NCBI GenBank assembly: GCA_002687825.1
Contig: NZBI01000005.1
Span: forward strand, 1-57,255
DNA length: 57,255 nt
Reading direction: 5' to 3'
Origin: Nanobdellota archaeon
GTDB lineage: Archaea; Nanobdellota; Nanobdellia; SCGC-AAA011-G17; ARS1403
Numbering within the stretch: position 1 is the stretch's first letter; each line of letters opens with the position of its first letter. The position numbers and the translations under genes were made by a program. Below the pieces are notes generated by a model. That model was given only the letters and a program-made list of their open reading frames with translations. It made no database searches and was not told the DNA's origin. This document shows, piece by piece, positions 1-53,137 of the stretch.

Positions 1-1187
1 ATTCCTAAGATTATAAATATTTCACTCACTAATGTAATAGCAACAGGTAATAACACTTTCCACTCTCTATATCTTATATATATAACACTCAAAACTCCCA
101 ATAGTGAAATAAATCCAACTAGAAACACATTCTTAATTAAACTTTGACCAAAAACAGGACTTATCGATTCCAATCCTACAATTTCTAATTCATATGGCAA
201 ACTCCCAGTAATTAATACAGTTTGCAACTCTCCCATATTTTTAACAGCATCATCCAAAGCATCATTTTGATTCCTTCCATAACCCGGACCAGAAATTTGT
301 ATATCAGTACTAGCGCTCCCCTTCAAACTAGCATCCACATTCAAACTATCTATTAGATTACCATCTAAATGAAATTCAATTTGCTCACTCAAAATCTTTT
401 GTCCACCTTCTGTAGTTATTATATCTAATTTATCCGTAACATCCGCATGCTTCCTAGCAGCTTCGGGGCTTAATTTAATCGTAAACTGAAATCTACAGGC
501 TCCTCCATTAGCATCTTCACTACAAGAATGAACCCCAGAACAAACTCCATCATCTCTACAAACAAAAGGAATATCTTCTTTACCACCTCTAAACACAGTT
601 TCATTTCCTATCTTAGCTTCAAACTTTCCTTGCTGAGCAACAAATCCTTCAATCTCTTCTCTTCCAACTCCAGCTATCTCAATTAAGACCAGTTTCTCAT
701 CAGCAGTACTAACCATTTTAAGTTTCAAGTCAGTTAAACCATAAACATTCAATCTATTTTTCAAAACCTCCATCAAATCTGAAATATCTTTCTCACTAAC
801 AAAATCTTCAGTATCGGGCTTTAGTAAAATCCTAGTTCCACCTTCTAACTCCAATCCTTTTTGTATTCTAGTTTTACTTGGAACTTTAGCTTCAATTTCA
901 AGAGTTTCATTAGATAAAAATGCATATTCTCCAATGTTAGTACCAATAACAAACTTATCTCTAGAATTATTCTCAACCTTTATAGTATCCCTAAATTCTT
1001 TAACATTATTGACACTTTTACCATTAACTTCTAAAATTCTTTCTCCAATAGAAATGCCTTGGCTCGAAACAATACCACTAACACTAGTAACTTCAACACC
1101 CCTAACATCTAATTTTGGACTAATCATTAGTAGGGAAAACAACAAAAATATAATCAAAATCCAAAGTCTAGTTCCTAATTTTTTGAT
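1..1187 (-). CDS. secD: Protein-export membrane protein SecD, partial (C-terminus beyond the window)
   Basis: SecD works with SecF in the membrane to drive late steps of Sec translocation. The readable part has a basic N-terminus (KKLGTRLW), a first membrane helix, a PDZ-like stretch (IVSSQGISIGERILEVNGKS), the family motif KGLELEGGTRI, an extracytoplasmic region with four closely spaced cysteines, and the first C-terminal helices (FVGFISLLGVLSVIYIRYRE). It overlaps the end of secF by 13 bases, the gene order known from archaea. No ATG or GTG lies between the upstream in-frame stop and the conserved N-terminus. The best start is ATC at 1187, 6 bases after an AAGGAGGG ribosome binding site. 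A TTG at 1157 would remove the basic residues and part of the signal anchor. The function is certain; the start is inferred. Confidence 0.93.
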   Translation of the reverse strand, partial: MKKLGTRLWILIIFLLFSLLMISPKLDVRGVEVTSVSGIVSSQGISIGERILEVNGKSVNNVKEFRDTIKVENNSRDKFVIGTNIGEYAFLSNETLEIEAKVPSKTRIQKGLELEGGTRILLKPDTEDFVSEKDISDLMEVLKNRLNVYGLTDLKLKMVSTADEKLVLIEIAGVGREEIEGFVAQQGKFEAKIGNETVFRGGKEDIPFVCRDDGVCSGVHSCSEDANGGACRFQFTIKLSPEAARKHADVTDKLDIITTEGGQKILSEQIEFHLDGNLIDSLNVDASLKGSASTDIQISGPGYGRNQNDALDDAVKNMGELQTVLITGSLPYELEIVGLESISPVFGQSLIKNVFLVGFISLLGVLSVIYIRYREWKVLLPVAITLVSEIFIILG

Positions 1188-2062
1188 CTTCTTCCCTCCT
1201 TATACCAGTACAATATACCTGCATTCATTCCATAAGTCGAGATTACATCAACGATTAGCGCAATTAAAATAATCAAGAACATTTGTTTTAAAACTAAACT
1301 ACTAGCGACAACATAACCTATACTTAGAGCAACAAAAGTTGTCATAGTCATTGTCAACCCAGTTTTAGCAGAGCTAATCAATCTTTCAATTGTTGTTCCA
1401 CCTTCAACCCTTTTCAAAACTTTAGTCGTCATCAATATATCTGTATCAACACTATAACCAATAACAAGTAAAAATGCAGCAATACCAGCAGTTGAAATTT
1501 TTAATTCTAATAAATTAACAACCATTAAAGTAGCACTTATATCTAATAATGCGCTTAAAATAACAGCCAAACTAGGAATGAAATTCCTAAAAGCAATAAA
1601 AACAACAATCCCCATTAAAATAAAAGCAATAAAAACAGCTTTAACCATATCTTTATAGAAACTATCTCCTAAACTACTCCCCACTTCATTAACACTATAA
1701 TTTTCTTCACTTAATCTTAAATCCAAAATATTCTCTAAAGTAATTTTTAGATTTTCTTTAACATTGACATCCCCAATATCAATAATGTATCCTAATAAAC
1801 TACTAGAACTAAAATCTCTTAATTTTCTAACAGAAACATCATTATTTAGTCTATTTTTAATATTTTCTTCTAAATCCAAAATCTCAAAATCCTTATCAGT
1901 ATAAACCGTAGCACTTATTCCTCCCTTTAAACTAACATCTCTATCAAACAATTCTCCTGTTGAATTATATTGAGAAATTAAAAAAACTAAACTTATTATC
2001 AACAATAATGCAGGAATAATAATTATCTTCTTATAATTTTTCTCGAAAAAAGCTTTAATCAT
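1175..2062 (-). CDS. secF: Protein-export membrane protein SecF
   Basis: SecF partners SecD in a proton-driven accessory complex of the Sec translocon. The 295-residue protein has one N-terminal membrane helix (residues about 13-30), the conserved motif LKGGISATV near residue 45, an extracytoplasmic domain, and five C-terminal helices containing GYSVDTDILM, the archaeal form of the family signature. The length is normal for archaeal SecF. The ATG start has a lysine-rich N-terminus. It is first in a secF-secD operon that overlaps by 13 bases, which suggests translational coupling. It is divergent from the Trm56 gene, so the roughly 70-base gap between them should hold both promoters. Confidence 0.95.
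   Translation of the reverse strand: MIKAFFEKNYKKIIIIPALLLIISLVFLISQYNSTGELFDRDVSLKGGISATVYTDKDFEILDLEENIKNRLNNDVSVRKLRDFSSSSLLGYIIDIGDVNVKENLKITLENILDLRLSEENYSVNEVGSSLGDSFYKDMVKAVFIAFILMGIVVFIAFRNFIPSLAVILSALLDISATLMVVNLLELKISTAGIAAFLLVIGYSVDTDILMTTKVLKRVEGGTTIERLISSAKTGLTMTMTTFVALSIGYVVASSLVLKQMFLIILIALIVDVISTYGMNAGILYWYKEGRRSKN
1194..1201 (-). promoter_or_regulatory. Ribosome binding site deciding the secD start
   Basis: AAGGAGGG lies inside the 3' end of secF and is followed by a 6-base spacer (AAGAAG) and then ATC. No standard start codon follows at usable distance. The same spacing is seen at three other genes of the window that also lack a standard start. Confidence 0.7.
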
Positions 2063-12000: not shown

Positions 12001-12092
12001 AGATATCCCTAGGATCAAACGCTTTAAAAAACTTCCTTTTAACCACTTTAAAATAATTAAAAACTTTAAACTAAAAATATTAAAAATTTACT

Positions 12093-14159: not shown

Positions 14160-15336
14160 CTAATTTAAGCGCTTTTTTTGCATCCCTCCATAATCTATCT
14201 TCAAAATCAGCATTTCTCTCCCCTTCTTCTTTATTTTTATTCAAAACTTCTAACAAATTACTAATCAATTCTTCTTCATTAATCTCAACTTCAACCCTAC
14301 CTAAATTTTTTTTAATTATTTCTTTCTCAACATCCTCAACATTACCTTCGACTTCAATTTCCTCTAACTCTTTTATTTTAATTCCTTCAGTATGTTTTAA
14401 AATTGCATAAGCTTTTTTTTCTTCTAATTGTTTAATAATTTCCTTAACCTTAATCTCACTAACTTTCCCACTTTCTAATTCTCCTTTAATTCTTAACAAA
14501 ACTAATTTATCATTAAAATCTCCTTTAATAATTTCATACAATTTTTCATTAATCTCAATAGGATTTCTACCTTCAATAGTTAAACTAACAACTTCTTTAG
14601 TTTTAATTGGAATATATTCTAAATTTAAACTATCATCAACAATATAGAAGCCCCCATTCTTTAATTCATCAATTTCTTTAAAATTATTAGGAAACAAAGG
14701 CCCAGGGTAAGTTATTTTTCCATAACCTTCTTTTACAACATCAAAAATATAATGAACATGACCTCCAGCATAATAATTAAAATTTTTAGGTAAATCAGCA
14801 TAACTACTACATTCCACTTTCTCTAAATCCTTAGGCTTAAATTCTTCTAACCCAGTATGAAACATAAAAATCTTAAAACCTTGTTCATTTTCCAAATGAG
14901 TTTTATCTAATTCTTTGTAATCATTTTTCTCTAACCCACTTCTTCTCCCTAAAATTCCAGTTATTTTAACTCCAGTTTTATCTTCAAAAAATAATAATTT
15001 CCCATCTACATCAGTTTTATTCACATTAATTATTAGTCCAGAACTTTCCAAAACATCTAACATAGTTTTTCCAGATGGAGAAAAATCATGACTTCCAGGA
15101 ATAACATAAACATCTATATTTCTAGCCTTAACTCTTTCTAAAACACTAGCAACTTCTTTAATTAAATCAATATTAGGTAAAGCTGTATCAAATAAATCTC
15201 CAGCAATTAAAATAAATCCAACATGTTCTTTAATACATCTATCTATAGCTATCCCAAATACATCTATACTTAATTGGTTTAATTTTTCATCTCTCCAACC
15301 ACCAACATGACAATCCGCCATATGTGCAAATTTCAT
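14149..15336 (-). CDS. mre11: DNA double-strand break repair nuclease Mre11
   Basis: Manganese-dependent phosphoesterase that trims DNA ends. Metal-site motifs in order: MADCHVGGW near residue 6, AGDLFD (about 52), GSHDFSPSG (about 84; usually GNHD, so the Asn is Ser here), FHTGLEEF and GGHVHY. After the nuclease core come a capping domain and a Glu/Lys-rich tail that should bind the Rad50 coiled-coil base. I start at the ATG 18 bases inside the longest open frame because MKFAHMADCH matches the family. First gene of the mre11-rad50 pair. Confidence 0.95.
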   Translation of the reverse strand: MKFAHMADCHVGGWRDEKLNQLSIDVFGIAIDRCIKEHVGFILIAGDLFDTALPNIDLIKEVASVLERVKARNIDVYVIPGSHDFSPSGKTMLDVLESSGLIINVNKTDVDGKLLFFEDKTGVKITGILGRRSGLEKNDYKELDKTHLENEQGFKIFMFHTGLEEFKPKDLEKVECSSYADLPKNFNYYAGGHVHYIFDVVKEGYGKITYPGPLFPNNFKEIDELKNGGFYIVDDSLNLEYIPIKTKEVVSLTIEGRNPIEINEKLYEIIKGDFNDKLVLLRIKGELESGKVSEIKVKEIIKQLEEKKAYAILKHTEGIKIKELEEIEVEGNVEDVEKEIIKKNLGRVEVEINEEELISNLLEVLNKNKEEGERNADFEDRLWRDAKKALKLDDN

Positions 15337-15437
15337 AATATTAAGAAAACTCAACTTTATAATAAGAATACGTTATCTAAAAGATATATATTAAAAAACA
15401 ATATGGTTTTAAATAGTAACTCTAAAAAATAAAAGCT

Positions 15438-15725
15438 ATGGCAGAAGAAGAAACAGAAAGAAAAGACCCAGGTGGAATTGTAGAAACTATGCATCAAAGC
15501 CTCATAGCCAATGATTATTCTTTTTTAAATTTTAGAACAAGAACAGAAGCAATAACAACCCACAATGTCTTACAAGAAGCCTTAGAACTAATGGAGTCTG
15601 AGGTTGTACCAGGGGATACACTTTTTGAGGCTCTCAAAGGACAAACACCAGAATCTATAATAGCAACTCACACTATTTATGAACTAGTAAAAGAACAAAT
15701 TGAAGAAGCTTACCGTACAAGATAA
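15438..15725 (+). CDS. Hypothetical protein, 95 residues
   Basis: An acidic, mostly helical soluble protein (MAEEETERKDPGG then VETMHQSLIANDYSF). No recognised domain, cysteine cluster or membrane segment. It is divergent from mre11 and convergent with minD, ending one base before the minD stop. A TATA-like sequence (TTTTAAATAG) about 25-30 bases upstream of the ATG supports expression. Confidence 0.55.
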   Translation: MAEEETERKDPGGIVETMHQSLIANDYSFLNFRTRTEAITTHNVLQEALELMESEVVPGDTLFEALKGQTPESIIATHTIYELVKEQIEEAYRTR

Positions 15726-15726
15726 A

Positions 15727-16521
15727 CTACTTCTTTCCATAATCTTTAATATCTTTAAACAATTTCTTAAAGATCTCCATCAAATCAGCAACTTTCTCAT
15801 TTCTATCATTATATTCAACATCTAACAACCTAGCAGCTAATCTTTTGTAATTTCTACTAGCTTCAGTTTTAGGATGAATTTCAAAAACAGCATTTCTCTT
15901 AACCATACTTTCTCTTATTTTACTATCTTCTTCAACAGCACCTACAACAGGAAATTCCAATATTTTTTCAATTTCATTAACTTCCATATCAAGCCCATCT
16001 CTCTTAAACCTATTAATAACAACTCCAGTCACAGGTTTTCTTAGCTCTCCAACTAAATTAACAGCTTTCAATGCATCAGTAACTGCAGGCATCTCAGGAT
16101 TAGTAACAACAATAACACCATCACAAACACTTATTGCTTTTGCGGCTTCCTCACCAAGACCCGCTGCCCCATCAATTAAAACATAATCCATAACTCCTTC
16201 CAAATCTAACAATGCATCATCTAAAGCTTCTAAATTAATTTCATCTAAACTACTAAACCCTATATCTCCAGGTATTACTTTCACCCCACTAGGGTGTTGA
16301 TACATAGCATCTAATAATTTATTTTTATTTTGTAGAACATCATGTATACTTACAGGAACAGAATGAACTCCTAAATAGATTCCAATATTTGGCGTAGTTA
16401 AATTAGCATCAACAATAGCAACGCTTTTCCCATAAGAATTCAAAGCCATTGCTAAATTTATTGTTGTAGTAGTTTTTCCAACCCCACCTTTTCCACTAAC
16501 AATGGTTAAAATTTTGGTCAT
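15727..16521 (-). CDS. minD: MinD/ParA-family ATPase
   Basis: A deviant-Walker ATPase that dimerises on ATP and positions cellular components at the membrane. SGKGGVGKTTT at residues 9-19 holds the signature lysine; AIVDANLTTPNIG is Walker A', VLIDGAAGLG the Walker B region (Asp-Gly-Ala-Ala in place of the usual Asp-x-Pro-Ala), and VVTNPEMPAVTDA the adenine-side motif. The C-terminus carries an amphipathic helix (ADLMEIFKKLFKDIKDYGKK) suited to membrane targeting as in MinD. It is the last of three genes that overlap by 4 bases each; the two upstream genes encode paralogous helical proteins, so it probably acts with them. Confidence 0.9.
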   Translation of the reverse strand: MTKILTIVSGKGGVGKTTTTINLAMALNSYGKSVAIVDANLTTPNIGIYLGVHSVPVSIHDVLQNKNKLLDAMYQHPSGVKVIPGDIGFSSLDEINLEALDDALLDLEGVMDYVLIDGAAGLGEEAAKAISVCDGVIVVTNPEMPAVTDALKAVNLVGELRKPVTGVVINRFKRDGLDMEVNEIEKILEFPVVGAVEEDSKIRESMVKRNAVFEIHPKTEASRNYKRLAARLLDVEYNDRNEKVADLMEIFKKLFKDIKDYGKK

Positions 16522-22956: not shown

Positions 22957-22958
22957 AG

Positions 22959-23987
22959 GTGATTGAAATAAAAAAGAAAATTTTAGTTTCCGGACTAATA
23001 GTATTCTTAGCTTTTCTTGTTGGATGTTCAAATTTACAAACACCTTCATCTCCAAAAAGTCCCAAAGATTCTATCGTAGAAGTTTTAGATGGAGAAATAA
23101 AAGCAGATATAGACGGAACTAAATATTTAGTAGATCCAAATAAAATCAGAGGTGGAGGTCTTGGAAAAGGAGGGATTGGTTTTGATAGTGGAATCCCAGC
23201 CTTAGCTCTAAATAATATTAAATTTGTAACAGTAGAAGAAGCAGATGAATGGATTGAAGATAATGAATTAGTCTTAGCTTTAATTCATAAAGGGGTAAAA
23301 AAAGTTTATCCATTACAAATCTTAGTATGGCACGAAATAGCTAATGATGTTGTTGCAGGAGATCCTTTAGCAGTTACATACTGCCCATTATGTGGATCAG
23401 GAATAGCTTATGAAAGAAAAATAGAAGTTAACGGAGAGTTAACAGAAACTAGATTCGGAACTTCTGGAAAATTATACAATTCAAATTTAATTATGTATGA
23501 TGAAACTACAGATACTTACTGGCAACAGATAGATGGAAAAGCCATAGTAGGCCCTTTAGTTGGTCAAGAATTAAAAGAAATATCCGTAGACACAGTTACA
23601 TGGAAAATATGGAAAACAGAACATCCAGACTCTCAAGTCCTATCTCAAGAAACCGGAATTAGTAGATCTTATGGTAGAGACCCTTATGGTAATTATTATG
23701 AAAACAGCAATCTATTCTTCCCAGTAGAAAACGAAGACCGCAGGATTCATGCAAAAACTCCAATCTTAGGAATTGAGGTTAACGGAGAATTCAAAGCTTA
23801 CAAAAGAGAAGACATTATAGGAACAATAGAAGACACTATAGGAAACACAAATATAAAACTAGAGAAATCAAAAGATGGTAGAGTTACTATTACTAATTTA
23901 AGTAACAATCAAGAAATTGTAAAAGAAGAAGATTTCTGGTTTGCATGGTATGCATTTCATCCAGAAACAGATCTATACAATGGATGA
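22959..23987 (+). CDS. DUF3179 lipoprotein
   Basis: 342 residues from a GTG start (GGTGATTGAAATA). Lipobox VGCS after a hydrophobic signal (about residue 23). The DUF3179 core follows: GGLGKGGIGFDSGIPAL, VYPLQILVWHEIANDVVAGD and VTYCPLCGSGIAYER with a C-x-x-C pair, then NLIMYDETTDTYWQQIDGKA. Function of the family is unknown; it is often found with thiol-redox or metal proteins. It starts 2 bases after the CARF regulator and overlaps the permuted ccdA by 8 bases. Confidence 0.88.
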   Translation: MIEIKKKILVSGLIVFLAFLVGCSNLQTPSSPKSPKDSIVEVLDGEIKADIDGTKYLVDPNKIRGGGLGKGGIGFDSGIPALALNNIKFVTVEEADEWIEDNELVLALIHKGVKKVYPLQILVWHEIANDVVAGDPLAVTYCPLCGSGIAYERKIEVNGELTETRFGTSGKLYNSNLIMYDETTDTYWQQIDGKAIVGPLVGQELKEISVDTVTWKIWKTEHPDSQVLSQETGISRSYGRDPYGNYYENSNLFFPVENEDRRIHAKTPILGIEVNGEFKAYKREDIIGTIEDTIGNTNIKLEKSKDGRVTITNLSNNQEIVKEEDFWFAWYAFHPETDLYNG

Positions 23988-27234: not shown

Positions 27235-28032
27235 TTAAACGTTTTTATATTTCAAGAGTGATGAATTTCTTTCATTTTGCCACTCAGGACACTTATTTTT
27301 GAACCCACACCACCCACATAATGGCGTTTTATTAGTTTCAAAGTCAGTACAAGCTTCAATTTCTATAATTTCATTTTCAATATCTTCTTTTAATTTTTTT
27401 AATTGCTCTTCAGTTCTTTCTGAAACTAACTCCATATTATGTGCTAAAAAATACCATATTAATTTAACATTCTTACAATCCTCAAAATGGTTTTTAACCC
27501 ACAAAGAGTACATAGCTAACTGCCTATCCTCATCTACCTCTCCTTGAGATTTCATATTCTTATTTGTCTTATAATCACAAACAAAATAAGTCCCATCTTC
27601 ACTTTTTACCAATCTATCAATTCTAATATGGTATTTATTATCATCTTTTAAATCAATAAAATCCTCAGTTTCAATATCTACAACTTTAGCTTGTGTAAAC
27701 GGCTTATTCCTTTCATAATAATTCTCAATAAAATTTTTACCCATTGCTTTGTAATAATCAGAAGTTAACCCTTCTCTAACAATTTTAACATTATCATCTT
27801 TCCAATTCTCATCCCATTCCTTCTCATAAAATTCAACTAATCTTTCTTTAGTATTTAGAAAACCTCCTTTCAATTCTCTATACAATTTCTCCAAAATCTC
27901 ATGAACCAATCCACCCATAAAAGTCTCAGCAGTATGTTCAAAATCAGGCTTCTCTTTATCTATATACTGCAGTTTATATCGAAACTTACATTGTTGAAAA
28001 GTACTCAATCTTGAATTAGAATAATTAGTAAT
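27235..28032 (-). CDS. RecB/Cas4-like PD-(D/E)XK nuclease with iron-sulfur cluster motif
   Basis: 265 residues. Conserved RecB-family N-terminus TNYSNSRLSTFQQCKFRYKL with the first cluster Cys, then GGLVHEILEKLY, nuclease motif IRIDRLVKSEDGTYFVCDYK (Asp and Asp-x-Lys), QLAMYSLWV, and the C-terminal CGWCGFKNKCPEW. Four cysteines (one N-terminal, three C-terminal) fit the 4Fe-4S cluster of AddB/Cas4-type nucleases. The motif needs residues upstream of the TTG at 28008; the only in-frame start choice is ATT at 28032, 6 bases after GAGGTG. No cas1 or helicase is adjacent, so it is probably a stand-alone repair nuclease. Confidence 0.87.
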   Translation of the reverse strand: MTNYSNSRLSTFQQCKFRYKLQYIDKEKPDFEHTAETFMGGLVHEILEKLYRELKGGFLNTKERLVEFYEKEWDENWKDDNVKIVREGLTSDYYKAMGKNFIENYYERNKPFTQAKVVDIETEDFIDLKDDNKYHIRIDRLVKSEDGTYFVCDYKTNKNMKSQGEVDEDRQLAMYSLWVKNHFEDCKNVKLIWYFLAHNMELVSERTEEQLKKLKEDIENEIIEIEACTDFETNKTPLCGWCGFKNKCPEWQNERNSSLLKYKNV

Positions 28033-28038
28033 TTACAT

Positions 28039-28044
28039 CACCTC
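28039..28044 (-). promoter_or_regulatory. Ribosome binding site deciding the nuclease start
   Basis: GAGGTG followed by ATGTAA (6 bases) and ATT. The ATG in the spacer is immediately followed by a stop in its own frame, and it is too close to serve. Confidence 0.65.
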
Positions 28045-38440: not shown

Positions 38441-38448
38441 AAAGGTGG
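38441..38448 (+). promoter_or_regulatory. Ribosome binding site deciding the transaldolase start
   Basis: AAAGGTGG, 6-base spacer TATATA, then ATT. The same octamer precedes ATC with a TATAGA spacer at the PfkB kinase gene. Confidence 0.75.
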
Positions 38449-38454
38449 TATATA

Positions 38455-39258
38455 ATTAAGATCTTCATAGATTCGGCTATTTTGGAAGAGATTAAACTAG
38501 TTTACTCCTATGGAATCTGCGATGGCGTCACAACAAATCCTAGTTTACTAAAAAAAGCTGCAGATAAACTAGAAGGAGAATCTTTAGAAAAATACATCAA
38601 AAAAATTCTAAAAACAGCTAAAGGAACTCCAGTCTCATTAGAAGTAACAGAAACAGATTACGAAGGAATGGTCAAACAAGGAAGAAGATTATTTAAAAAA
38701 TTTAACAGAGTAGCAAACAACGTCTACATTAAAATCCCAGTTAATCCATCTTTTAGTTCAAAAGTTTCAGCAGATGGAATTCAAGCAATAAGAACATTAT
38801 CAAAAAAAAGAATTCCAATCAACTGTACTTTAATTTTCACTCCAGAACAAGCTTTACTAGCAGCAAAAGCTGGAGCAAACATAGTCTCCCCATTCTGTGG
38901 AAGAATTGACGACTTCATAAGAAAAAATAATAAAATTAAATTCAAAAAAGAAGACTATTTCCCTATGGAAGGAATAGAAAAGAAAAAGAAAACTTTAGAA
39001 GATAATGGAATTGTTTCTGGAATTGATTTAGTTGAACAAATAGTTGAAATATTCAAACAACATAATATAAAATCAGAAGTTATAGCAGCCTCAATGAGAA
39101 ATCCAAGACAAGTTAGAGAAGCAGCATTAGTAGGTTCTCATATAGCAACTCTCCCATTTGATGTTATTAAACAATTATTAGATCACAAAAAAACTCAAGA
39201 AGGAATGAAAAATTTCACTAAAGATATTGTTCAAGAATATGTTAACCTAACAGAATGA
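38455..39258 (+). CDS. tal: Transaldolase (TalC/MipB type)
   Basis: Transfers dihydroxyacetone units in the pentose phosphate pathway. 267 residues, slightly longer than the 215-residue TalC class: KIFIDSAILEEIKLVYSYG, CDGVTTNPSLLKKA, VYIKIPV (Schiff-base Lys), INCTLIFTPEQALLAAKAGA, SPFCGRIDDF and SEVIAASMRNPRQVREA. KIFIDSA, with its catalytic Asp, lies upstream of the first possible standard start (TTG at 38482), so translation must begin at ATT 38455, 6 bases after AAAGGTGG. Overlaps the SIS gene by 4 bases. Confidence 0.92.
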   Translation: MKIFIDSAILEEIKLVYSYGICDGVTTNPSLLKKAADKLEGESLEKYIKKILKTAKGTPVSLEVTETDYEGMVKQGRRLFKKFNRVANNVYIKIPVNPSFSSKVSADGIQAIRTLSKKRIPINCTLIFTPEQALLAAKAGANIVSPFCGRIDDFIRKNNKIKFKKEDYFPMEGIEKKKKTLEDNGIVSGIDLVEQIVEIFKQHNIKSEVIAASMRNPRQVREAALVGSHIATLPFDVIKQLLDHKKTQEGMKNFTKDIVQEYVNLTE

Positions 39259-47995: not shown

Positions 47996-48182
47996 TTTTC
48001 ATCCTAACTTTTATAACAATAAACATATCAACCAAAAAACCTACCACTCCTATTAATAATAAAATTACAGTTAAAATATCCATTTCCTTCATTAAATTAA
48101 TTATAGAATAAATTATAACATACAAAAAAGCTAAAGCTCCTAGAGTATCCATCTTAGCTGTAAATTTTTCAATGTCTAACAT
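47985..48182 (-). CDS. Small two-helix membrane protein, 65 residues
   Basis: MLDIEKFTAKMDTLGALAFL and a second hydrophobic segment (ILTVILLLIGVVGFLVDMFIV), basic end. Overlaps the genes on both sides (14 and 11 bases), so it is translated with the kinase and aldolase. No function recognised. Confidence 0.55.
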   Translation of the reverse strand: MLDIEKFTAKMDTLGALAFLYVIIYSIINLMKEMDILTVILLLIGVVGFLVDMFIVIKVRMKNVK

Positions 48183-49062
48183 CTTTCCACCTTAATAATT
48201 TATTTTTAGCACCAAAATGTCTTAAAACTGATTCAGAATTTTTTAAAGCTATTTTCAAACTTTTCTCAACACTTTCATTTTTAATTAAACCTGCAACAAA
48301 ACTAGAAGCAAAGGCATCTCCAGCCCCAGTTCTTTCTAAAACTTTAATTTTATGTGGCTTCAATTTATATTTAACACCTTCCGCATAACATTGAATATCT
48401 TTATTCTTATCAGTAACAACAACAATCTCAGGACCTAATTTCTTTAATCCATCCAACAAATCTCCTTTCTTAACTAACATCTCACCTTCTTCTTTGTTCA
48501 ACACTAAAACTGTAGATAATTTTAGTAATGTTTTCAAACTATTAGGTTTTTTCTTAATTAAATATGAACTAGGGTTAAAAGCTATTTTTACTAAATCTCT
48601 AGAAACCAACTCCCTAGCTAACTTAACTTGAGTTTTCAAACTTTTACCTAACATAGAAGAAAAATATAACCACTTAGTTTTAAATTTTGGATAAGTCTTT
48701 AAATTATCATTAGCAGCTTTATGAGTTAAAACAGTCCTATTATGATTATTACTATCAACTACAACACTAATCCCATTAAGTCCTTCTCTTTTCCCTAAAA
48801 AATTAACTTTTTCTTTTTTAAGACAATTAGATACATAATCTCCATTCAAATCATCTCCTATAATCCCTAAATAGCCAGTATTTAACCCTAACCTAGAAAA
48901 AGCAACAGCAGTATTCGTCCCTCCTCCTCCAACATCAGTTCTAAAATCTTGAATTAAAATCTTTTCTCCAACTGGTAATTGAATTTGTTTATTTTTCTCT
49001 TTAAGACAAGTACTAGCAAATAGATCTACTACATTACTTCCTACACAAACTACATCAAAGAT
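48169..49062 (-). CDS. PfkB-family sugar kinase (possible phosphofructokinase)
   Basis: 297 residues when read from ATC at 49062. N-terminus FDVVCVGSNVVDLFAST, glycine-rich RTDVGGGGTNTAVAFSRLGL, GIIGDDLNGDYVSN, and the anion-hole motif ERTGAGDAFASSFVAGLI (catalytic Asp). Without the ATC start the protein would begin at an internal TTG (48849) and lose 71 residues including the conserved glycine box. AAAGGTGG precedes the ATC by 6 bases. The aldolase and TIM genes downstream suggest fructose-6-phosphate as substrate; ribokinase or another sugar kinase remains possible. Confidence 0.88.
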   Translation of the reverse strand: MFDVVCVGSNVVDLFASTCLKEKNKQIQLPVGEKILIQDFRTDVGGGGTNTAVAFSRLGLNTGYLGIIGDDLNGDYVSNCLKKEKVNFLGKREGLNGISVVVDSNNHNRTVLTHKAANDNLKTYPKFKTKWLYFSSMLGKSLKTQVKLARELVSRDLVKIAFNPSSYLIKKKPNSLKTLLKLSTVLVLNKEEGEMLVKKGDLLDGLKKLGPEIVVVTDKNKDIQCYAEGVKYKLKPHKIKVLERTGAGDAFASSFVAGLIKNESVEKSLKIALKNSESVLRHFGAKNKLLRWKDVRH

Positions 49063-49068
49063 TCTATA

Positions 49069-49076
49069 CCACCTTT
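49069..49076 (-). promoter_or_regulatory. Ribosome binding site deciding the PfkB kinase start
   Basis: AAAGGTGG, spacer TATAGA, then ATC. Identical octamer and 6-base spacing as at the transaldolase gene (ATT). Confidence 0.8.
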
Positions 49077-49118
49077 ATAATTATTACAATTAGAATATAT
49101 ATAAAACTTACTTTAAAA

Positions 49119-52150: not shown

Positions 52151-53137
52151 TTAGAATTTTAATCGCTTAACAACATCAACCATTCTATTAGAATAACCAT
52201 ACTCATTATCATACCAAATTAAAACTTTAACCATATTATTTTTAAGAACTTGAGTATCAACTGAACTAATAACACCTGAATGACTATTACCTACTATATC
52301 TGAACTAACTAACTCATCTTCACTATATTCTAAAACTCCTTTCATTTCTTTTTCTGAACTTTTCTTTAAAACTTCATTAAGAACTTTAACATCTACATTT
52401 TTATTCAAAACACAAACAAAATCTACTATACTCCCACAACTAACAGGAACTCTTAAAGCAATTCCATTTAATTTATTTCTTAATTCAGGAATAACTTCAA
52501 CTACAGCTTTAGTAGCTCCAGTAGTAGTAGGAACTATATTAACAGCAGCAGCTCTCCCTCTCCTAATTTTCTTATTAGGTCCATCTATTAAATATTGACT
52601 AGAAGTATAAGCATGCACAGTAGTAATAAATCCTTTCTCAATACCAAATTTATCATTTAAAACTTTTACCACAGGAGTTAAAGCATTTGTAGTACAACTC
52701 GCAACTGAAATAACTCTATCTTTTTTCTTCAAATCTTGATCATTAACACCATAAACTACTGTTTTATCTAAATTTTTTCCAGGAGCGGAAATAACCACTT
52801 TTTTTGCGCCAGCATTTAAATGCCTCATAGCTTCTTTCCTATCTTTAAATTTCCCAGTACATTCTAAAACTACATCAATTTTCAACTTTTTCCAAGGCAA
52901 TTGTCCAGGTTCTTTTTCATTTAATACCTTTATTTTCTTTCCACCAACTTTAATCCATCCATCACCATGACTAACTTCTTTATCATATTTACCATAAACA
53001 GAATCATATTCGACTAAGTGAGCAAGCACCTTTGAGTCACATAAATCATTAATAGCAACAACATTTACTCTTTTATCTAAACAAATCTTAAAAACATGAC
53101 TTCCAATTCTACCAAATCCATTTATTGCTATATTCAA
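52151..53137 (-). CDS. gap: Glyceraldehyde-3-phosphate dehydrogenase, bacterial class I type
   Basis: NAD(P)-dependent, phosphorylating. 328 residues: INGFGRIGSHVFKICL, VVISAPGKNLDKTVVYGVND, catalytic SVASCTTNALTPVVKVL (Cys), FITTVHAYTSSQYLIDG, NIVPTTTGATKAVVEVIPE and WYDNEYGYSNRMVDVV. The S-x-C-T-T-N-x-L-x-P motif marks class I (bacterial/eukaryal) GapA; the usual archaeal enzyme is class II. It would pair with pgk. Likely acquired from bacteria by its ancestor. Confidence 0.95.
   Translation of the reverse strand: MNIAINGFGRIGSHVFKICLDKRVNVVAINDLCDSKVLAHLVEYDSVYGKYDKEVSHGDGWIKVGGKKIKVLNEKEPGQLPWKKLKIDVVLECTGKFKDRKEAMRHLNAGAKKVVISAPGKNLDKTVVYGVNDQDLKKKDRVISVASCTTNALTPVVKVLNDKFGIEKGFITTVHAYTSSQYLIDGPNKKIRRGRAAAVNIVPTTTGATKAVVEVIPELRNKLNGIALRVPVSCGSIVDFVCVLNKNVDVKVLNEVLKKSSEKEMKGVLEYSEDELVSSDIVGNSHSGVISSVDTQVLKNNMVKVLIWYDNEYGYSNRMVDVVKRLKF

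Follow-up and report, generated by a model that had tools for sequence, protein, structure and literature searches.

Probable initiation at AUU, AUC and AUA codons behind strong Shine-Dalgarno sequences in a Nanobdellota archaeon and its relatives

Introduction

The infC gene of Escherichia coli has an AUU start codon and is autoregulated by its product, the initiation factor IF3. Archaea do not have IF3.

In Staphylococcus aureus, infC, cvfC1 and ccpN have AUU or AUA starts with an extended Shine-Dalgarno (SD) sequence, and ccpN is conserved in Bacillus subtilis. Such starts give about 10–30% of the output of AUG, and one of them responded to the growth medium (PMC13009471). A compensation between start codon and SD is known for GUG and UUG: weaker starts go with stronger SDs. 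Switches from AUG to AUU were found in 1 of 61,358 ancestral AUG starts (PMC5622118). Termination-reinitiation in overlapping gene pairs is known in both archaea and bacteria (PMC6728339). A review of archaeal initiation names AUG, GUG and UUG as the sole starts (PMC7531240), and our literature search, with most subscription papers outside its reach, found no report of AUU, AUC or AUA starts (AUH starts from here on) in archaea.

We describe AUH starts in a Nanobdellota archaeon. The window is the whole stretch of DNA that was analysed, 57,255 nt from one contig. An original prediction, made from the letters of this stretch, had proposed an AUC start for a PfkB kinase gene and similar starts for three other genes.

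Genomes and Methods

The genome studied here (G000) has 775 kb in 25 contigs and is 87% complete. Among named assemblies, those of Nanoarchaeota/Woesearchaeota are closest to it, and its family has eight genomes in our collection. The genome was sampled in stretches, and about 413 kb of the 775 kb form the basis of our counts. From reciprocal best hits among G000, G001, G004 and G005 we obtained the orthology-fixed starts of G000: 118 ATG and 18 GTG or TTG. SD energies were computed against the archaeal consensus anti-SD (PMC7531240), since a search for the 16S gene of G000 gave nothing usable. For the BatA gene we scanned 84,980 prokaryote genomes and obtained a total of 42 distinct DPANN loci. 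One of them (L094) is ambiguous, with an ATG three codons further, and another (L093) was counted as GTG.

Results

The PfkB gene

The features described in this work are collected in Table 1. The clearest result of a coding-potential scan for long 5' ends without NTG codons was a PfkB-family sugar kinase gene; the other candidates were mostly fragments, or could plausibly start on NTG.

Table 1. Genes with AUH starts and associated features. Positions are those of the window, except for BatA.
Feature	Position	Strand	Comment
secD gene	3..1187	-	AUC start 1187-1185; runs off the left edge of the window
secD SD, AGGAGGG	1194..1200	-	-11.1 kcal/mol; within the end of secF
secF gene	1175..2062	-	stop codon inside secD, 13 nt overlap
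DUF3179 lipoprotein SD, AGGTGA	22957..22962	+	-8.9 kcal/mol
DUF3179 lipoprotein gene	22968..23987	+	probable AUA start 22968-22970; absent from the original prediction
PD-(D/E)XK (RecB-like) nuclease gene	27235..28032	-	AUU start 28032-28030
Nuclease SD core, AGGTGA	28038..28043	-	-12.7 kcal/mol
Transaldolase SD, AAAGGTGG	38441..38448	+	-8.9 kcal/mol
Transaldolase / fructose-6-phosphate aldolase (TAL_FSA) gene	38455..39258	+	AUU start 38455-38457
PfkB-family sugar kinase gene	48169..49062	-	read from AUC 49062-49060
PfkB AUC start codon	49060..49062	-	kept together with the SD in G001
PfkB SD, AAAGGTGG	49069..49076	-	-8.9 kcal/mol, duplex with archaeal anti-SD consensus
TATA-like TTTTATATATATT, 5' of the PfkB leader	49094..49106	-	putative promoter
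BatA/VWA gene	C5:82604-83539	-	ATT start; same contig, outside the window

The minus strand reads TAA-AGG-TGG-TAT-AGA-ATC-TTT-GAT-GTA-GTT-TGT, where the TAA (49077-49075) precedes the open frame and the spacer between SD and ATC is TATAGA. As had been predicted, the first NTG in frame is TTG 48849, and the reading begins 6 nt after the SD: these coordinates are confirmed, the stretch from ATC to TTG scores as coding and the start is fixed by orthologues. The protein read from ATC matches the PfkB profile PF00294 over nearly its whole length (residues 4–287, E 1.4e-33), and its glycine box GGGGTNTA is encoded upstream of the TTG. The predicted N-terminal peptide would be MFDVVCVGSNVVDLF..., or the same form lacking Met. 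There is no overlap with the upstream gene, and the position of the TATA-like sequence suggests a short leader, which would begin just before the SD.

The alignment of orthologues that had been proposed as a check gives a clear answer. The SD and ATC are identical in the congener G001 (AGGTGGTATAGA-ATC, 86% protein identity). In another genus (G007, 74% identity) the gene has AGGTGATAGGAT-ATT, with in-frame TGA TAG just before GAT-ATT, and the block upstream of PfkB is kept in both G001 and G007. In another family (G074, 39% identity) we find AGAGGTGGTTTGA-ATT with an in-frame TGA directly upstream, an SD of -11.5 kcal/mol and no NTG for 54 codons. The AUH start is thus conserved in four genomes, and in six other orthologues of the order ATG stands at this codon.

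Other genes in the window

Transaldolase, nuclease and secD had been predicted to be alike, with a strong SD, a fixed 6 nt spacer and ATT or ATC. The strong SDs and the start codons hold, and orthologues have ATG; the fixed spacing does not. The leaders are AAAGGTGG-TATATA-ATT in transaldolase, AGGAGGG-AAGAAG-ATC in secD and AGGTGA-TGTAA-ATT in the nuclease, so three of the four genes have a 6 nt spacer when it is measured from the end of the motif, and the nuclease has one of 5 nt (about 5–7 in the anti-SD register). In the nuclease, an in-frame TAA is the codon directly before ATT, and in secD no NTG is found between ATC and the upstream in-frame stop. Transaldolase and nuclease do not overlap their upstream genes.

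The aligned codon is ATG in all ten order-level homologues of transaldolase, in the nuclease orthologues of G002 and G006, and in secD of G002, G003, G004, G005 and G007, while in G006 the secD ATG is one codon downstream. The DUF3179 lipoprotein orthologue in G001 also has ATG at the aligned codon, with GAGGTG ahead of it. Among the relatives compared, the AUH starts of these four genes are seen in G000 alone.

In the stretches of G001, G004 and G005 we have found one further AUH start, that of an M50 protease gene, which starts with ATT in G005 and ATG in G000. Since it includes secD, the nuclease, the lipoprotein, BatA/VWA and this protease, the set goes beyond the selected metabolic genes that had been suggested.

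Four other candidates were dropped since a downstream ATG fits better: ATT at 12087 of the window, ATA in L030, and ATT in L029 and L140.

The BatA gene

BatA is the strongest case of an AUH start. All eight genomes of the family have AUA or AUU (ATA in six, ATT in two) and none has NTG; these starts lie inside the end of the upstream gene, behind AGGAGG. Judging by its place before BatA, the upstream gene is presumably of the DUF58 type. Sixteen of the 42 DPANN loci have AUH, the ambiguous locus included; the others have ATG (23), TTG (2) or GTG (1) at or adjoining the same codon. AUU or AUC is found in at least seven DPANN genomes outside the family, and AUH loci include Aenigmatarchaeota, a Nanoarchaeum and a Pacearchaeota genome. 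The tree requires seven changes of start-codon state, at least four of them on well supported branches.

BatA overlaps the upstream gene in 16/16 AUH loci, compared with about half of the other loci. For 14 of these 16 the end of the upstream stop codon is at +10; of the remaining loci, one has it at +7 and one at +13. The mean SD energy is -10.7 in AUH loci vs -7.3 in the others (p 2e-5, relatedness ignored); when corrected for relatedness four independent pairs are left, none of them contrary, too few for significance.

The overlap links the BatA start to the end of DUF58: AUG-G codes for Trp, AUA-C for Tyr and AUU-C for Phe. The upstream frame has Trp over ATG-G in all 12 overlapping ATG loci, and also over the TTG-G locus. 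Over the AUH starts it has Tyr (6), Phe (6), Leu (3) or Ser (1). The coincidence of Trp and AUG is built into the sequence; the informative part is the aromatic residue kept in 12/16 AUH loci, which suggests that the C-terminus of the upstream protein constrains the start codon.

Shine-Dalgarno strength and frequency

There are six AUH starts among 413 gene-like frames of G000, about 1.5%. All six have SD energies between -8.9 and -12.7 kcal/mol. Energies of -8.9 or lower are found at 8.5% of the 118 orthology-fixed ATG starts (Mann-Whitney p 1e-4 vs the six AUH starts), a comparison which is biased because the AUH starts were found partly through their SDs. Equally strong SDs precede 8.5–11% of orthology-fixed ATG genes and about 1.4% of in-gene codons of G000. 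Most ATG genes have no SD (median -1.3 kcal/mol). A list obtained by orthology only, judged by eye, gave no convincing AUH start lacking an SD.

Initiation at AUU and AUC behind a strong SD, as originally predicted, is supported in several genes and across species, and AUA may be added. The broader claim that this lineage uses such codons whenever the SD is strong fails: most strong SDs precede AUG. The suggested genome-wide scan for an SD, a spacer and ATH gave no enrichment, with 23 matches of AGGTGNT-N5-ATH vs 33 for a reversed control pattern. In a tally of the codons that follow strong SDs, made on 350 gene-like frames, only ATG is clearly enriched (2.6x), with AUU at 0.9x, AUC at 0.65x and AUA at 1.15x.

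The GAPDH gene (window 52151-53137, minus strand) starts at TTG 53137 with no SD at the normal distance, which suggests a leaderless TTG start.

Initiator tRNA and aIF1

We searched the eight family genomes for the initiator tRNA. Its anticodon is CAU in G003, G004, G006 and G007, and the tRNA was not found in G000, G001, G002 and G005. The gene for aIF1 is present in all eight, with an ATG start in seven and GTG in G002 (L164).

Some peculiarities of these tRNAs may be noted. The initiator anticodon loop is CCCATAA in L210 (G003) and L211 (G004), with C33 instead of U33. Many tRNA genes seem to have introns, which ARAGORN missed, and the initiator tRNAs of G003 and G006 have a seeming insert in the T arm; these observations come from the tRNA loci L014, L017, L018, L019 and L021 of G000 and from L210 and L212.

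Inserts in protein genes

In the cysS gene of G000 (L044, G000:C18:1-20000, minus strand, frame 14638-15994 of the reverse complement), about 31 nt interrupt the CGPTVY motif. With these nucleotides taken out, the motif reads YTCGPTVYHYAHLGN again. The insert, which can form a bulge-helix-bulge-like hairpin, is probably an archaeal mini-intron in a protein-coding gene. Likewise, the EF-2 genes of two congeners (L175 in G005, L201 in G004) have 32 nt which interrupt the P-loop exactly (HIDHGK/TTFSDN). The joined flanks restore the motif in both, and a mini-intron is again probable. Introns known in archaeal protein genes are mainly in cbf5 (PMC2738675).

Discussion

Orthology establishes the start positions; the strength of the SDs, the overlaps and the conservation are likewise direct observations. 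We consider it quite likely that they reflect a rare mode of initiation, in about 1.5% of the genes, which depends on the SD and uses ordinary Met-tRNA at AUH codons. The CAU anticodon in four relatives and the presence of aIF1 in all eight genomes make this the simplest reading. The initiator tRNA would pair with the first two bases of AUH and the mismatch at the third base would be tolerated, its cost being paid by the strong SD duplex, which would keep AUH in place in the P site. For the overlapping pairs DUF58-BatA and secF-secD, ribosomes which terminate on the upstream gene would probably help by reinitiating. A reduced output may be expected from all these starts. The orthologues with ATG at or adjoining the aligned codon indicate that AUH replaces AUG there, in recent and in old cases. 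Judging from the genomes compared, the AUH starts of PfkB and BatA are long conserved, and some of the others are recent replacements of AUG.

A different interpretation gives AUH starts a dedicated regulatory function: they would be attenuated, and would respond to the level of an initiation factor or to the upstream gene being translated. Their conservation in PfkB and BatA speaks for it, as do the low output and the response to medium of the bacterial examples (PMC13009471). Against it, the AUH starts of secD, nuclease, transaldolase and lipoprotein are seen in G000 alone, the aIF1 genes themselves start on NTG, and the BatA codon may be kept in place by the DUF58 overlap, with no regulatory role. 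We regard such a function as rather unlikely. The low-rate control mode of the original prediction is plausible for PfkB and BatA, because AUH is conserved there, and less so for secD, nuclease and lipoprotein, which have it in G000 alone and ATG in relatives.

A wider proposal, which we put forward as speculative, is that AUH is a regular minor class of start in DPANN archaea. In BatA, AUH would be kept or regained across several phylum-level lineages because the last two bases of the start and the next base encode the terminal aromatic residue of DUF58, and reinitiation would set a low BatA:DUF58 ratio.

Ribosomal frameshifting from the upstream gene would make the AUH codons of BatA and secD internal codons of a fusion protein. 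The ends of the upstream genes do overlap both of them, in a different frame. However, there is no common slippery motif (L077 has an interrupted A-run, and several DPANN loci have none), ATG starts occur where the overlap is the same, and PfkB, transaldolase and nuclease are left unexplained because they overlap nothing. Frameshifting is therefore very improbable.

The remaining explanations are slightly weaker still. If the real starts were downstream NTG codons, the usual starts and the choice of gene callers, with the upstream open stretch untranslated or a relic, PfkB would lose 71 residues including the glycine box, transaldolase its strand 1 and the nuclease its first motif; the lost stretches are conserved across species and align with ATG starts, so we give this hardly any credence. 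Sequencing or assembly errors, or decaying pseudogenes, might be suspected in a fragmented and incomplete assembly, but in independent assemblies of relatives this codon is again AUH, identical or different, and the frames are otherwise intact: this is most improbable, and on the sequence comparison it can be taken as already refuted for PfkB and BatA. An AUG supplied by mRNA splicing or editing would fit a family which seems to have 31–32 nt introns in cysS (G000) and EF-2 (G004/G005) and many tRNA introns, yet it is scarcely credible, as the SD always stands at the normal distance from the AUH codon itself, and the ATG of orthologues is found at or adjoining this codon with no extra sequence.

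If 1–2% of genes really have AUH starts, the usual gene callers shorten or overlook these genes in DPANN genomes. The fidelity of archaeal start-codon selection (aIF1, SD anchoring, reinitiation) could then be tested on natural sites which differ by one base between close relatives.

Initiation at AUH is already known in bacteria and overlap coupling in archaea; AUH starts in archaea appear to be the new part. With E. coli infC, the genes described here share AUU initiation in a leadered gene; unlike infC, they encode no initiation factors, and the aIF1 genes start with ATG or GTG. As in the S. aureus genes, an AUH start and a strong SD are both conserved across species; the differences are that these genes are archaeal, are other genes and are partly coupled by overlaps. 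DUF58-BatA and secF-secD resemble termination-reinitiation pairs in their overlap and in the SD inside the upstream gene, but the overlap is 10–13 nt, compared with 1 or 4 nt (PMC6728339), and the downstream start is AUH. Finally, weaker starts go with stronger SDs here too; in contrast with the rarity of AUG-to-AUU switches reported in PMC5622118, several AUG/AUH differences are found among a few hundred genes of a single family.
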